Shown here one piece after another: positions 3,740 through 20,970 of a stretch of DNA of 64,000 nucleotides. The translations under genes and the position numbers were made by a program. The DNA is taken from positions 1 through 64,000 of the forward strand of contig NZ_JAFKRH010000035.1 in NCBI RefSeq assembly GCF_019038465.1, written 5' to 3'. How positions within the stretch are numbered: position 1 is the stretch's first letter; the number at the start of each line of letters is the position of its first letter. The notes beneath the pieces are model-generated. The model saw nothing but the letters and a program-made list of their open reading frames with translations, did no database searches and was not told where the DNA came from. Source of the DNA: Synechococcus sp. CCY 0621. Lineage in GTDB: Bacteria; Cyanobacteriota; Cyanobacteriia; PCC-6307; Cyanobiaceae.

Positions 3740-5664
3740 GCGCGATCAGCCTGGTGGGGGCCGCCAAGGACTTCGGCCTGCGCAGCCTGTTCTCCGATCT
3801 CGACCTGCACGTGGGTGAGCGGGACCGGCTGGGGCTGATCGGCCCCAACGGCGCCGGCAAGAGCACCCTGCTGCGGGTGCTGGCGGGCCTCGAACCGCTC
3901 GATCGCGGTGAGCGCCGCTGCCATGCCCGTACCCGGGTGGTGCTGCTCGACCAGGAGCCCCGGCTGGATCCCTCCCTGACGGTGCTGGAGCAGGTGTTCG
4001 CCGGGGACGGGGAAGCCATGGGCCTGCTGCGGGAGTACGCCGGCGTGAGCCACCAGCTGGCCCTCCATCCAGAGGACGGCCAGCTCCTGGCCCGCCTCAG
4101 CGCCCTGCAGCACCGCATGGACGGCTGCCAGGCCTGGGACCTGGAGCGCCGCTGCCGGGAGGTGCTGGAGCGCCTGGGCATCGACGCGGCCCACCAGGAG
4201 CGGACGATCGGGGAGCTCTCCGGCGGCAATCGGCGCCGCGTCGCCCTGGCGGCGGCCCTGGTGGCCGAACCGGAGGTGCTGCTGCTGGATGAACCCACCA
4301 ACCACCTCGACGCCGAGGGGGTGGAGTGGCTGCAGAGCTACCTGGATCGCTTCTCCGGCGCCCTGGTGCTCGTCACCCATGACCGCTACCTGCTGGATCG
4401 GGTCACCCGCCGGATCGTGGCGGTGGAGCGGGGCGAGGCCCGGCCCTATGAGGGCAACTACGGCACCTACCTGGGCCTGAAGGCGGCCGAGGAGGAGGCC
4501 GAAGCCTCCACCGCCGCCAAGCTCAAGGGGACCCTGCGGCGGGAACTGGCCTGGTTGCGCCAGGGCCCCAAGGCCCGCAGCACCAAGCAGAAGGCCCGGC
4601 TGCAACGCATCGATGCCCTGCTGGAGGCCCCCGCCCGCCAGGGGCGCACCAGCCTGGCGATGGCCGCCACCGCCCGGCGCATCGGCAAGCGGGCAATCAC
4701 CGCCGAGGGGCTGGCGGTCGCGGTGGGTGAGCGCACCTTGCTGCGCGACTTCAGCTACGACTTCAGCCCCGAGGATCGGGTGGGGATCATCGGGCCCAAC
4801 GGGGCCGGCAAATCCAGCCTGCTGGAGGTGATCGCCGGGCGGCGCCCCCCCAGCGAGGGCCTGCTGGAGCTGGGGGGCACGGTGAAGCTGGCCTACTTCG
4901 ACCAGCACAGCGACGTGCTGCTGGCCAAGGACGGCAAGCGCAAGGTGATCGAGGTGGTGCAGGAGGCCGCCAGCCGGGTCCAGGTGGACGGGGTGGAGCT
5001 GACGGCCTCCCAGCTGCTGGAGCGGTTTCTGTTCCCTCCGGCCCAGCAGCACCAACCCGTGGCGAAGCTCTCCGGTGGCGAACGACGGCGGCTGCACCTC
5101 TGCCGGCTGCTGATCGAGGCCCCCAATGTGCTGCTGCTGGACGAGCCCACCAACGACCTCGATGTCCACACCCTGAGCGTGCTGGAGGAGTTCCTCGACG
5201 ATTTCCGCGGCTGTGTGGTGGTGGTTTCCCACGACCGCTGGTTCCTGGATCGCACCGTCGACCGCCTGTTCCACTTCGAGGACGGCCGGCTGGAGCGCTT
5301 CGAGGGCAACTACAGCAGCTGGCTGGAGCGACGGTCAGAGTCGCCGACCACCGCCCCTGGGCCTGCCGCCGTCGCCGCCGCAGCCGTGGCCCAGGTGGCC
5401 GCCAAGCGTTCGGCCCCACCCGCCAAGGTCCCGGCGGACGGCCCCCGGCGGCGCAGCTTCAAGGAGACCCGGGAGCTGGAGCGTCTCGAAACCGAGCTGC
5501 CCCAGCTCGAACAGCAACGCCGCGAGCTGGAGCAGCACCTGGCGGCTCCCAGTGGCCCGGATTACGCCCGCCTGGAGGAGCTGACCCATGAGCTGGCGGC
5601 CCTGGTGGAGCGGATCCACGCGGCGGAGGAGCGCTGGCTGGTGCTGAGCGAACTGGCCGCCTGA
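3736..5664 (+). CDS. ABC-F family ATPase, Uup-like
   Basis: This 642-residue soluble protein contains two complete ABC ATPase domains and no membrane segment, the hallmark of ABC-F proteins, which act on ribosomes or nucleic acids rather than in transport. Each half has a Walker A (GPNGAGKST and GPNGAGKSS), a signature (LSGGNRRR and LSGGERRR) and a Walker B (LLLDEPTNHLD and LLLDEPTNDLD). The linker between them is the basic P-site-tRNA-interaction motif region. A C-terminal charged coiled coil after a Pro/Ala linker (about residues 570-642) resembles the DNA-binding tail of Uup. The ATG at 3736 overlaps the DUF2301 stop. Earlier in-frame starts lie inside the upstream genes. Confidence 0.92.
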   Translation: MSAISLVGAAKDFGLRSLFSDLDLHVGERDRLGLIGPNGAGKSTLLRVLAGLEPLDRGERRCHARTRVVLLDQEPRLDPSLTVLEQVFAGDGEAMGLLREYAGVSHQLALHPEDGQLLARLSALQHRMDGCQAWDLERRCREVLERLGIDAAHQERTIGELSGGNRRRVALAAALVAEPEVLLLDEPTNHLDAEGVEWLQSYLDRFSGALVLVTHDRYLLDRVTRRIVAVERGEARPYEGNYGTYLGLKAAEEEAEASTAAKLKGTLRRELAWLRQGPKARSTKQKARLQRIDALLEAPARQGRTSLAMAATARRIGKRAITAEGLAVAVGERTLLRDFSYDFSPEDRVGIIGPNGAGKSSLLEVIAGRRPPSEGLLELGGTVKLAYFDQHSDVLLAKDGKRKVIEVVQEAASRVQVDGVELTASQLLERFLFPPAQQHQPVAKLSGGERRRLHLCRLLIEAPNVLLLDEPTNDLDVHTLSVLEEFLDDFRGCVVVVSHDRWFLDRTVDRLFHFEDGRLERFEGNYSSWLERRSESPTTAPGPAAVAAAAVAQVAAKRSAPPAKVPADGPRRRSFKETRELERLETELPQLEQQRRELEQHLAAPSGPDYARLEELTHELAALVERIHAAEERWLVLSELAA

Positions 5665-5775
5665 GCGCCGCTGCCGGGGCGATGGGTGTGCGGGACCCCA
5701 CAGGAAACGGCGGCGCCCCTGCCCCGCCCGTATGGTGTCTGCGGTGAGTTCCGGCTCGTGAAGGCCGGTTTTTGC

Positions 5776-5994
5776 ATGAAGACGATCGACGATCACATCG
5801 AGAAGGACAAGGTCGAGATCGAATCGGCCAAGGCCGACGGCAATCTCGGCAAGGTGCGCCATCTCGAGGAGGAGCTCAAGGCCCTCAACGAATACAAGGA
5901 GCACCACCCCGAGGACAGCCACGACCCCAGCCCCCTCGAGGTGTACTGCGACCTCAACCCCGAAGCGCCCGAGTGCCGCGTCTACGACGACTGA
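5776..5994 (+). CDS. cp12: CP12 Calvin-cycle regulatory protein
   Basis: This 72-residue, acidic, intrinsically disordered protein ends in LEVYCDLNPEAPECRVYDD, the diagnostic C-terminal CP12 motif. It bears the redox-active Cys pair that binds GAPDH. CP12 assembles GAPDH and phosphoribulokinase into an inactive complex in the dark. The PRK-binding helix region is present as RHLEEELKALNEYK. The N-terminal Cys pair of plant and many cyanobacterial CP12s is absent: the only two cysteines are at the C-terminus. The ATG at 5776 was preferred to an in-frame ATG at 5686, which adds residues unlike CP12. Confidence 0.95.
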   Translation: MKTIDDHIEKDKVEIESAKADGNLGKVRHLEEELKALNEYKEHHPEDSHDPSPLEVYCDLNPEAPECRVYDD

Positions 5995-18355: not shown

Positions 18356-18874
18356 CTAACGAAGCGCCCTGCGCCGCAGCAGTTGCGGCTCGACGCTCTC
18401 CACACCCGGCAGGTCCCGCAGCCTGTCCAGACAGCCGAGGGCGTCGGCGATGCTGCCGCTGCTGGCCCGCAACCAGGCGGCCTCGGGTGCATGGTCGGGC
18501 AGGCTGGCGATGCGGCAGCCGGCCTGCTCCAGGGCGGCGCGGTGGTCCTTCGCACGGTCCCCCTGCCGGACACGCAGAAACAGCGCCCCGGTGGGAACGG
18601 CCAGTTCATCGCTTCCCACCTGGCCATAGACCGGGCTGATGGTCTGGCCGGGAGCCAGGGGGGCGGCAGGGGGACCGGCCAGCACCGCAATCGCCTCCGG
18701 CTCGAACAGCAGGATCACGTTCGCCTGCGGCAGGGGCTCCCCATGCACGGCAGTCCAGCCGGTCTTCTGTGCCAGGAGCACCGATCCCGGCCCCCCCACG
18801 GCGATCTGCCGGGGGAACGCTTCGACCATGGCGGCGACCAGCGCCTGCTCCTGGCTCACCGACCGATTCCGCAA
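18356..18874 (-). CDS. hypothetical protein resembling the prodomain of the adjacent subtilase
   Basis: This 172-residue soluble protein has no signal peptide and no family I recognise. Its last 75 residues (from GALFLRVRQGD to LLRRRALR) can be aligned by eye with the region just before the protease domain of the divergent subtilase (from ENLFVKFDDDA to SPSRQRR). The pattern shared is LF(V/L), G-x-x-I in the middle, a hydrophobic strand before -A-x-S/P, and V-x-x-x-x-P-x-L ending in arginines. The length and order match a stand-alone subtilisin propeptide. The gene starts at an ATG 107 bases from the protease start. Function as inhibitor or folding assistant is an inference. Confidence 0.6.
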   Translation of the reverse strand: MRNRSVSQEQALVAAMVEAFPRQIAVGGPGSVLLAQKTGWTAVHGEPLPQANVILLFEPEAIAVLAGPPAAPLAPGQTISPVYGQVGSDELAVPTGALFLRVRQGDRAKDHRAALEQAGCRIASLPDHAPEAAWLRASSGSIADALGCLDRLRDLPGVESVEPQLLRRRALR

Positions 18875-18981
18875 GGCTGCAGAGGTTAGCCCCCTGCCTG
18901 TGACGGCAGATCACGTCCTGTTCCGTTGGCTTGTCTTCAGAGGCCCATCGGCGGAGAGTGACCGCCGCAGCTGCAAAGCCG

Positions 18982-20970
18982 ATGGTTCAGGTTCGCTATG
19001 GCGGCAAAGATGCTGTCCCCTATGCACTCGATGTCAGCGACAATCACCTCGTCGTCCGCACCCTGAGTCGCCAGGCGGTGATGCCGGCGCGGCCGTTCGA
19101 GGTGTCGCCCGTCAGCGCCGAGACCCACCGGATTCTCGATCAGTTCGAGACCCTGACCCGTTTCCGCGAGGCGGGGGTTGAGCTGTTGGGCACCAAAACG
19201 TTCCAGGCCGATGGGGCCCTGCGCGACACCGCCCGCAGCCTGCTGAAGGCGGAACCGGCGGTTGACTTCGCCGGCCGTGTGCTGGTGGATGCCCAGGGCC
19301 GGCCCGTGGTCTACACGGAGAATCTGTTCGTCAAGTTTGACGATGACGCGGAGGCCGAGGCCTGCGAGGGCCTGCTGCAACGCCTGGGCCTCGCCATCAA
19401 GCGCGTCCTCAGCTATGCCCGCAACTCCTATTTCGTGGCCGCTCCCGTCAGCAGCGGGCTCGGGGTTTTTGAGATGGCCGACACCCTGCTGGCGGAAGCG
19501 AGTGTGGCGCTCTGCCACCCGGAACTGGTGAGCCCGAGCCGGCAGCGTCGTCTGGCTTACCCGCCCGAATGGCATCTCAAGGCCACCGCCGTCAACGGCC
19601 GGCTCGTCGACGCCCACGCCGAGGTGGAGGCGGCCTGGGCCCTCAGCGACGGCACCGGGGCGATCATTGCGGTGGTGGATGACGGCTTCGACATCGACCA
19701 TGAGGAGTTCCGCTCCTCCGGCAAGGTCGTCGCGCCGCGGGATGTGACCCGCCAGAGCGGCGATCCCCGGCCCGGCCGCGGCGACGACCACGGCACCGCC
19801 TGTGCGGGGGTGGCCTGCGCCAACGGCCAGTTCGGTGCCACAGGCGTGGCCCCCGGCGCCCGCCTGATCCCCATCCGGCTGGCCTCCGGCCTGGGCTCCC
19901 AGGCGGAAGCCGACGCGTTCGTGTGGGCGGCCCGCAACGGCGCCGATGTGATCTCCTGCAGCTGGGGTCCGCCGGACGGGGCCTGGTGGGACCCGAACGA
20001 TCCCGCCCACCGCCAGGTGGTGCCGCTGCCGGATTCCACCCGGCTGGCGATCGACTTCGCCACCACCCAGGGCCGCAGCGGCAAGGGCTGTGTGGTGCTG
20101 TTCGCGGCGGGCAACGGCAACGAGAGCGTCGATAACGACGGCTACGCCAGCTACGCCCGGGTGATCGCCGTGGCGGCCTGCAACGACCTCTCCAAACGCA
20201 GCGCCTACAGCGACCACGGCAAGGCCGTGTGGTGCAGCTTCCCCAGCAGCGACGGCCGACCCTCCCTCACCCCCGGCATCTGGACCACCGACCGCTCCGG
20301 CGGGCTGGGCTACAACCAGGGCAGCCCCCAGAAGGGCGACCCGGCGGGCCATTACACCAATTCCTTCGGCGGCACCTCCAGCGCCTGCCCAGGTGTGGCC
20401 GGGGTGGCGGCCCTGGTGCTGGCGCGAAACCCAGCCCTGCGCTGGGATCAGGTGCGGGAGATCCTGCGACAGGCCTGCGTGCGGATCGACACCGCCGGCG
20501 GCAACTACGACGCCAGCGGCCGCAGCCCCTTCTACGGCTACGGGCGGGTCAGCGCCCGCAAGGCGGTGGAACTGGCCCGCCCGCCCCAGCCGGCGGCGGC
20601 GCTGGTGTTCCAGGCGGTGCAGGACGTGCCCATCAACGACTTCCAGACCGCCACCCTGACCCTGCCGGTGGCCGCGCCGGGCCCGTTGCAGTCGATCAAG
20701 GTGGCGGTGGATCTCGACCACACCTTCATCGGCGATCTGGTGGTGCGACTGCTGCCGCCCGCCGCCCTGGGGGCCGCTCCTGTGCTGCTGCACGACCGGG
20801 CCGGTGGCGGCACCGACAACCTCAAGGTCACCTACGACGCTGTGAATGCCCCCGCCCTGGCGGCGTTGAAGGGCACCGATCCCAGCGGCACCTGGACCCT
20901 GGAGGTGTCCGACACCGCCCGCGCCGACCGGGGCACCCTGCGCAGCCTGAGGCTGGAGCTGAGTTTCTGA
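18982..20970 (+). CDS. S8 subtilase with kexin-type P domain
   Basis: This is a 662-residue serine protease. Residues 1-185 form a prodomain-like region, followed by the S8 catalytic domain with AVVDDGFDIDH (Asp 233), DDHGTACAGVA (His 270), AAGNGN (oxyanion Asn) and GGTSSACPG (Ser 466). The C-terminal 110 residues are a proprotein-convertase P domain (DLDHTFIGDLVVRL, DPSGTWTLEVSD, LRLELSF), as in kexin and furin. No signal peptide is visible, so it is either intracellular or exported by another route. An open frame extends to a TTG at 18931 and a GTG at 18958. The ATG was chosen because the conserved MVQVRYGG start follows and because it leaves room for the divergent promoters. Confidence 0.9.
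   Translation: MVQVRYGGKDAVPYALDVSDNHLVVRTLSRQAVMPARPFEVSPVSAETHRILDQFETLTRFREAGVELLGTKTFQADGALRDTARSLLKAEPAVDFAGRVLVDAQGRPVVYTENLFVKFDDDAEAEACEGLLQRLGLAIKRVLSYARNSYFVAAPVSSGLGVFEMADTLLAEASVALCHPELVSPSRQRRLAYPPEWHLKATAVNGRLVDAHAEVEAAWALSDGTGAIIAVVDDGFDIDHEEFRSSGKVVAPRDVTRQSGDPRPGRGDDHGTACAGVACANGQFGATGVAPGARLIPIRLASGLGSQAEADAFVWAARNGADVISCSWGPPDGAWWDPNDPAHRQVVPLPDSTRLAIDFATTQGRSGKGCVVLFAAGNGNESVDNDGYASYARVIAVAACNDLSKRSAYSDHGKAVWCSFPSSDGRPSLTPGIWTTDRSGGLGYNQGSPQKGDPAGHYTNSFGGTSSACPGVAGVAALVLARNPALRWDQVREILRQACVRIDTAGGNYDASGRSPFYGYGRVSARKAVELARPPQPAAALVFQAVQDVPINDFQTATLTLPVAAPGPLQSIKVAVDLDHTFIGDLVVRLLPPAALGAAPVLLHDRAGGGTDNLKVTYDAVNAPALAALKGTDPSGTWTLEVSDTARADRGTLRSLRLELSF

Follow-up and report, generated by a model that had tools for sequence, protein, structure and literature searches.

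The question raised by this locus is why a subtilase gene should be faced, across a short shared upstream region, by a small separate gene whose product resembles the prodomain of that protease. The window, i.e., the whole stretch of 64,000 nucleotides that was analysed, belongs to a 3.2 Mb genome; in the named collection, its near relatives are found in Synechococcus, Cyanobium and Aphanothece. The protease gene and its parts are as follows.

18982 to 20970, plus strand: PrcA-like S8 subtilase carrying a P domain, 662 aa when counted from the conserved ATG (Pfam, orthologue alignment, best PDB matches kexin and furin).
18982 to 19548, plus strand: the protease's own pro-region, ending at a putative R-x-R processing site (hhalign match to the small protein; conserved R-x-R before FPQQWHL).
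19651 to 20544, plus strand: Peptidase_S8 catalytic domain (PF00082, residues 241-538, E 2.2e-43).
20689 to 20958, plus strand: P domain of proprotein convertase type (PF01483, residues 587-676, E 2.3e-11).

The open frame of the protease begins at TTG 18931, and the orthologue starts converge on an ATG at residue 18 (18982), which gives a protein of 662 aa with the N-terminus MVQVRYGG. The DDG, DHGTAC, AAGN and GGTSSA motifs all lie in the catalytic domain and are conserved among the aligned orthologues. The order of an S8 catalytic domain followed by a P domain is the layout of the kexin/furin type (S8B), and a PDB search returned kexin (E 1.4e-30) and furin (E 7e-24) as the closest solved structures, the Aeromonas serine protease (ASP) being a related subtilase as well. 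A SWGPxD segment is aligned with kexin/furin, and FPQQWHL, where the matched region begins, is similar to furin; in contrast to kexin and furin, however, the window protease is bacterial, has no evident signal peptide and carries a pro-region diverged beyond Pfam detection. Judged by its sequence, it would be compatible with calcium dependence and with cleavage after Arg/Lys. The pro-region is conserved in the orthologue alignment and well predicted by AF2, whereas the AF2 model of the whole protease is poor (mean 68), its usable parts being the pro-region and the P domain only.

The small protein, here called ProX, is divided as follows.

18356 to 18829, minus strand: ProX, a stand-alone subtilase-prodomain-like protein of 157 aa (orthologue starts, dN/dS, AF2 model).
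18359 to 18601, minus strand: C-terminal part of ProX (hhalign E 1.8e-6 over 83 gapless columns; best structural matches are subtilisin propeptides).
18359 to 18370, minus strand: C-terminal R-x-x-R (R154 to R157), conserved among 58 orthologues and proposed to sit in S4-S1 of the protease.
18602 to 18829, minus strand: N-terminal beta part, residues 1-76 (AF2 strand order; match to an archaeal subtilase pro-region).

The two open reading frames lie where the sequence-only reading had placed them, but the length of the smaller product has to be corrected, as an alignment of orthologue starts puts the conserved start at ATG 18829 (157 aa) rather than at TTG 18874 (172 aa). A dN/dS of 0.26-0.45 among close relatives, together with orthologues in several phyla, argues that ProX is a real gene. 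Nearly all of its orthologues are open frames of about 160-250 codons without a protease domain. ProX matched no family in Pfam or NCBIfam, and PF05922 (Inhibitor_I9) had no match anywhere in the genome, ProX included; the stand-alone inhibitors named in an earlier study are also without significant sequence similarity (PMC6993865), so that a PF05922 match is not a strict criterion. The sole sensible Pfam lead was the Fervidolysin N-terminal prodomain, with weak matches in 4 of 46 ProX members. Two other leads were discarded: the ProX sequence profile retrieved from the PDB only hopAB3, a chance match (E 0.15), and a defence-system reading was dropped, ProX being without a PADLOC match and the protease matching a generic subtilase entry only.

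Pairwise BLASTP between the two window proteins found no similarity, so the by-eye alignment of the end of the small protein with the prodomain of the protease, on which the sequence-only reading was built, was possibly due to chance and a profile test was needed. Small alignments of the two families already gave an hhalign E-value of 2.2e-4, and with 58 ProX and 52 protease sequences the match reached E 1.8e-6 (score 44.7, 83 gapless columns), pairing residues 72-154 of ProX with residues 104-186 of the protease, both counted from the conserved Met. This is the very stretch that had been aligned by eye. Controls using the catalytic domain, the P domain or reversed profiles scored 10.7-14.5, compared with 44.7 for the pro-region, and 60 column shuffles gave a mean of 13.6 (sd 3.0, maximum 28.2). 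When the ORF sets of the loci were searched with ProX profiles, the pro-regions of single proteases were likewise recovered, at about 1e-3 to 1e-6.

The N-terminal halves of ProX and of the window protease pro-region show no significant hhalign match (E 0.15), although their AF2 models have the same strand order. Homology over the full length of ProX thus rests on this strand order and on an archaeal bridge, the pro-region of an unannotated haloarchaeal subtilase, L217 (Natrinema gelatinilyticum plasmid NZ_CP100757.1, 166459-173766). The ProX profile matches that pro-region over hmm positions 9-154 on residues 7-177 (i-E 1.3e-10); hhalign gives E 3e-8 over 137 columns for ProX against it, and E 1.6e-6 for it against the window protease pro-region. 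At the level of sequence, ProX is therefore best regarded as a stand-alone copy of an entire subtilase pro-region. Compared with the pro-region of the cyanobacterial protease, the covalent one of L217 shows the closer resemblance to ProX; a plasmid search with this archaeal subtilase as the query recovered only itself.

The predicted structure points in the same direction. An AF2 model of ProX built with 46 orthologues reached pLDDT 91.6 and pTM 0.85, with residues 77-152 in the order E-H-E-E-H-E. The first Foldseek match was ORF2 (3wqb_B), a chaperone complexed with the Aeromonas serine protease, over residues 7-157, followed by the prodomains of PC1/3 and subtilisin (probability 1.0), interspersed with RRM proteins of lower probability; the E-values, 3.8e-3 at best and ranging from 4e-3 to 3e-2, are not significant alone. 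The VIA list was headed by the propeptides of pro-subtilisin E and Tk-subtilisin at Z 7.4-8.5, near the level that the tool calls common, and it aligned ORF2 with the model over 92 residues. Each fold search is modest, and together they agree with the sequence evidence that ProX has a predicted propeptide fold; the differing folds that would have spoken against the sequence-only reading are not what is predicted.

The end of ProX suggests how such a fold might be used. In subtilisin BPN' and the malarial protease SUB1, a Glu-x-Asp of the propeptide caps two helices of the catalytic domain, SUB1-ProM has Glu-x-Asn at the equivalent place, and the C-terminal tail of the propeptide reaches the active-site groove in BPN' and SUB1 (PMC6993865). 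In ProX, E147 and Q149 are present in all 58 sequences, R154 in 53 of 58 and Arg/Lys at position 157 in 57 of 58, and 56 of the 58 orthologues have at most three residues after position 157. The last Arg of ProX aligns with the conserved R-x-R that comes before the mature domain in the protease, an enzyme closest among solved structures to kexin and furin, so that ProX looks like a released autoprocessing product offered in trans.

The reading preferred here, with a probability of about 0.72, is that ProX binds the neighbouring kexin/furin-like protease in trans and blocks its active site as a separately controlled brake. The protease would rely on its covalent pro-region for folding. ProX, expressed under separate control from the divergent promoter region that both genes share, would dock its propeptide fold on two surface helices of the protease via the E-x-Q cap and place its C-terminal R-x-x-R in the S4-S1 subsites, as the product of the protease's own autocleavage would, thereby braking the mature or prematurely activated enzyme. 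The homology to the pro-region, the conserved linkage, the co-loss and the conserved basic C-terminus are observed, and the propeptide fold is predicted; from these we infer binding, inhibition, subsite occupancy and regulation. On slightly better than even odds, the scheme would hold more widely, with widespread bacterial furin-like proteases standing under two prodomains, i.e., a covalent one in cis and a separate copy, encoded by a divergent gene, that acts in trans and mimics the autoprocessing product via its R-x-x-R.

The linkage of the two genes was examined at several depths. In the host's family (300 genomes), ProX was found at full strength in 12, each time adjoining and divergent from the protease; a single genome (G163) carries only the protease, and another (G286) has remains of both genes. 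In 193 genomes of family f7, identified as Nostocaceae through named records with shared contigs, ProX occurs in 35, all with the protease, and the protease in 39; of the proteases without intact ProX, two stand without any ProX (G422, G778), one has a fragment (G776) and one is cut near a contig start (G648). In a further genome of this family (G767), ProX is truncated and the protease carries a stop. Co-decay of both genes is seen in G286, G767 and L176. Across the phylum, 386 evenly sampled genomes comprised 9 with both genes, 1 with the protease only, none with ProX only and 376 with neither, and the gene pair, whose conservation the sequence-only reading had left to a survey, is indeed rarely split. 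The Fisher p of 2e-17 for this sample is, like all such p-values, inflated by linkage and shared ancestry, and some of the co-occurrence follows simply from tight linkage.

A scan of named loci with two conserved peptide patterns, by which more distant relatives would be missed, yielded 59 loci, in 56 of which the protease, sometimes cut by the locus end, adjoins ProX in divergent orientation. In the others, ProX is broken (L177), or the distance to a PrcA-like protease (68% identity) is about 8 kb, with coordinates suggesting the same contig (L132), or the protease is 7.8 kb off (L164, the same stretch as G765). In G765 and G771 (L191, L190), ProX and the protease stand 5-8 kb apart with other genes between them, by eye including transposon-like ones in G765, and both are kept and remain divergent. 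Bearers of the divergent pair are Cyanobium/Synechococcus, Nostocaceae (protease orthologues of 64-67% identity and about 662 aa, with a divergent ProX), Acidobacteriota MAGs, Candidatus Manganitrophus and delta-proteobacterial MAGs; the MAG assignments may contain binning errors, and the Manganitrophus record is a complete chromosome. The genes neighbouring the pair differ between lineages, which bears out the earlier proposal of a separately encoded, divergently transcribed prodomain-like partner of the protease. Beside an S8 peptidase of a Leisingera caerulea plasmid (L216), two hypothetical genes lie directly 3' on the same strand (4687-5883), neither of them matching the ProX profile.

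An alternative that deserves some weight, though it is rather improbable, is that ProX is mainly an external folding chaperone, as ORF2 is for the Aeromonas serine protease, with inhibition as a by-product. ORF2 is the first structural match, it is encoded beside asp, the gene of a related subtilase, and its C-terminal Lys lies at the catalytic centre (PMC5638518). However, ASP has no propeptide, whereas the window protease has a conserved and well-predicted one, and G163, G422, G776 and G778 retain an intact protease gene but no intact ProX, while intact ProX without the protease was not found. Since the protease keeps a full pro-region and persists in these four genomes, the comparison leans to an inhibitor role for ProX, which is probably not an obligate chaperone.

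Where the two proteins would meet bears on a second alternative. The window protease and ProX have no evident signal peptide, as the sequence-only reading had observed, but its conclusion that the pair is intracellular is now doubtful. Some orthologues carry an in-frame hydrophobic N-terminus, which in one case includes a lipobox-like SGC; in those of G048, G280, G268 and G132 such a stretch may or may not be translated, as there is a conserved internal ATG and constraint is weak, with dN close to dS over 34 codons. The ProX orthologue of L129 (5890-6480) has the lipoprotein-signal-like N-terminus MIKRRLIVGLWCICLWMSGC. All1380 and Alr1381 (a calcium-dependent protease), adjacent and divergent in Anabaena PCC 7120, were both detected in the exoproteome of this strain, which also holds abundant cytoplasmic proteins, e.g., RuBisCO and phycobiliproteins (PMC4390845). 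The doubt about an intracellular location comes from the extracellular finding of both proteins, and the cytoplasmic proteins in the same exoproteome make lysis a possible source of them.

ProX might be a substrate, or a regulator with another target, whose R-x-x-R tail is trimmed by the protease and which acts elsewhere, e.g., outside the cell. In most orthologues R-x-x-R is followed by 0-3 residues, like a processed site, and All1380, the probable Anabaena counterpart of ProX, is extracellular. Yet for a propeptide fold that is encoded next to the protease and disappears together with it, action on that protease is the simplest reading, and ProX has no other recognised domain, which makes this alternative unlikely. 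The last alternative, a functionless, degenerate duplicate of the pro-region carried along by linkage, can practically be set aside: ProX does evolve faster than the protease (about 1.6 times, with distances correlated at r 0.95 and, in the pairs tested, identities of 32-58% compared with 72-91% for the catalytic domain), but its dN/dS of 0.26-0.45, residues invariant across phyla and a divergent arrangement conserved in unrelated neighbourhoods all speak against decay.

Between the two genes lie the following features.

18830 to 18981, no strand: divergent intergenic region between the two conserved ATGs (152 bp), with a highly conserved block in relatives.
18900 to 18914, no strand: GTGA-N7-TCAC inverted repeat, a possible operator within the conserved block.

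The repeat lies about 82 bp before the protease ATG; it is present in all 7 loci of the window clade and absent from 5 more distant loci of the genus/family, and is a possible operator of the divergent pair. A sigma-70 promoter scan found no promoter.

Stand-alone propeptide-like inhibitors share with ProX the small separate gene product, the subtilisin-propeptide fold and the action on a subtilase, the fold being predicted and the action inferred for ProX, and SUB1-ProM is, like ProX, encoded beside protease genes and has the helix-capping Glu. However, those named in PMC6993865 are all eukaryotic, whereas ProX comes from bacteria, carries an additional N-terminal beta part, ends in R-x-x-R and shows recognisable homology to covalent pro-regions. 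ORF2, also bacterial, is likewise encoded next to a related subtilase and has a basic C-terminus, which lies at the active site, and it inhibits ASP with an IC50 of 84 nM (PMC5638518). It is encoded downstream of asp in what is described as an operon (PMC5638518), while the ProX and protease genes diverge, and its partner lacks the propeptide that the window protease retains in full.

A further closely similar pair is that of Anabaena PCC 7120, in which Alr1381, called prcA (PMC3610870), has the contiguous divergent neighbour All1380, annotated "no similarity" (PMC4390845, PMC3610870). In Nostocaceae, the orthologues of the window pair are laid out in just this way, and by this arrangement and annotation All1380 is very probably ProX. 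For the Anabaena protease, propeptide-assisted folding was reportedly described in the 1990s. No paper describing ProX as an inhibitor was found in the openly accessible literature covered; older studies of the Anabaena protease in subscription journals may contain such a description. If the preferred reading, inhibition in trans, is correct, ProX would represent a bacterial inhibitor family that has a fixed partner and whose sequences point clearly to descent from covalent pro-regions, a case in which the origin of an inhibitor from a protease prodomain can be followed. It would also give an immediate role to a gene without annotation that adjoins what appears to be the calcium-dependent protease long known from Anabaena, and provide bacteria with a brake that can be applied again and again to a calcium-dependent convertase.

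Apart from the window protease, the genome has a single S8 domain (L218, G000:C31:351553-352497), which lies behind a large N-terminal part that looks alpha/beta-hydrolase-like by eye (GHSQG motif), an unusual fusion.
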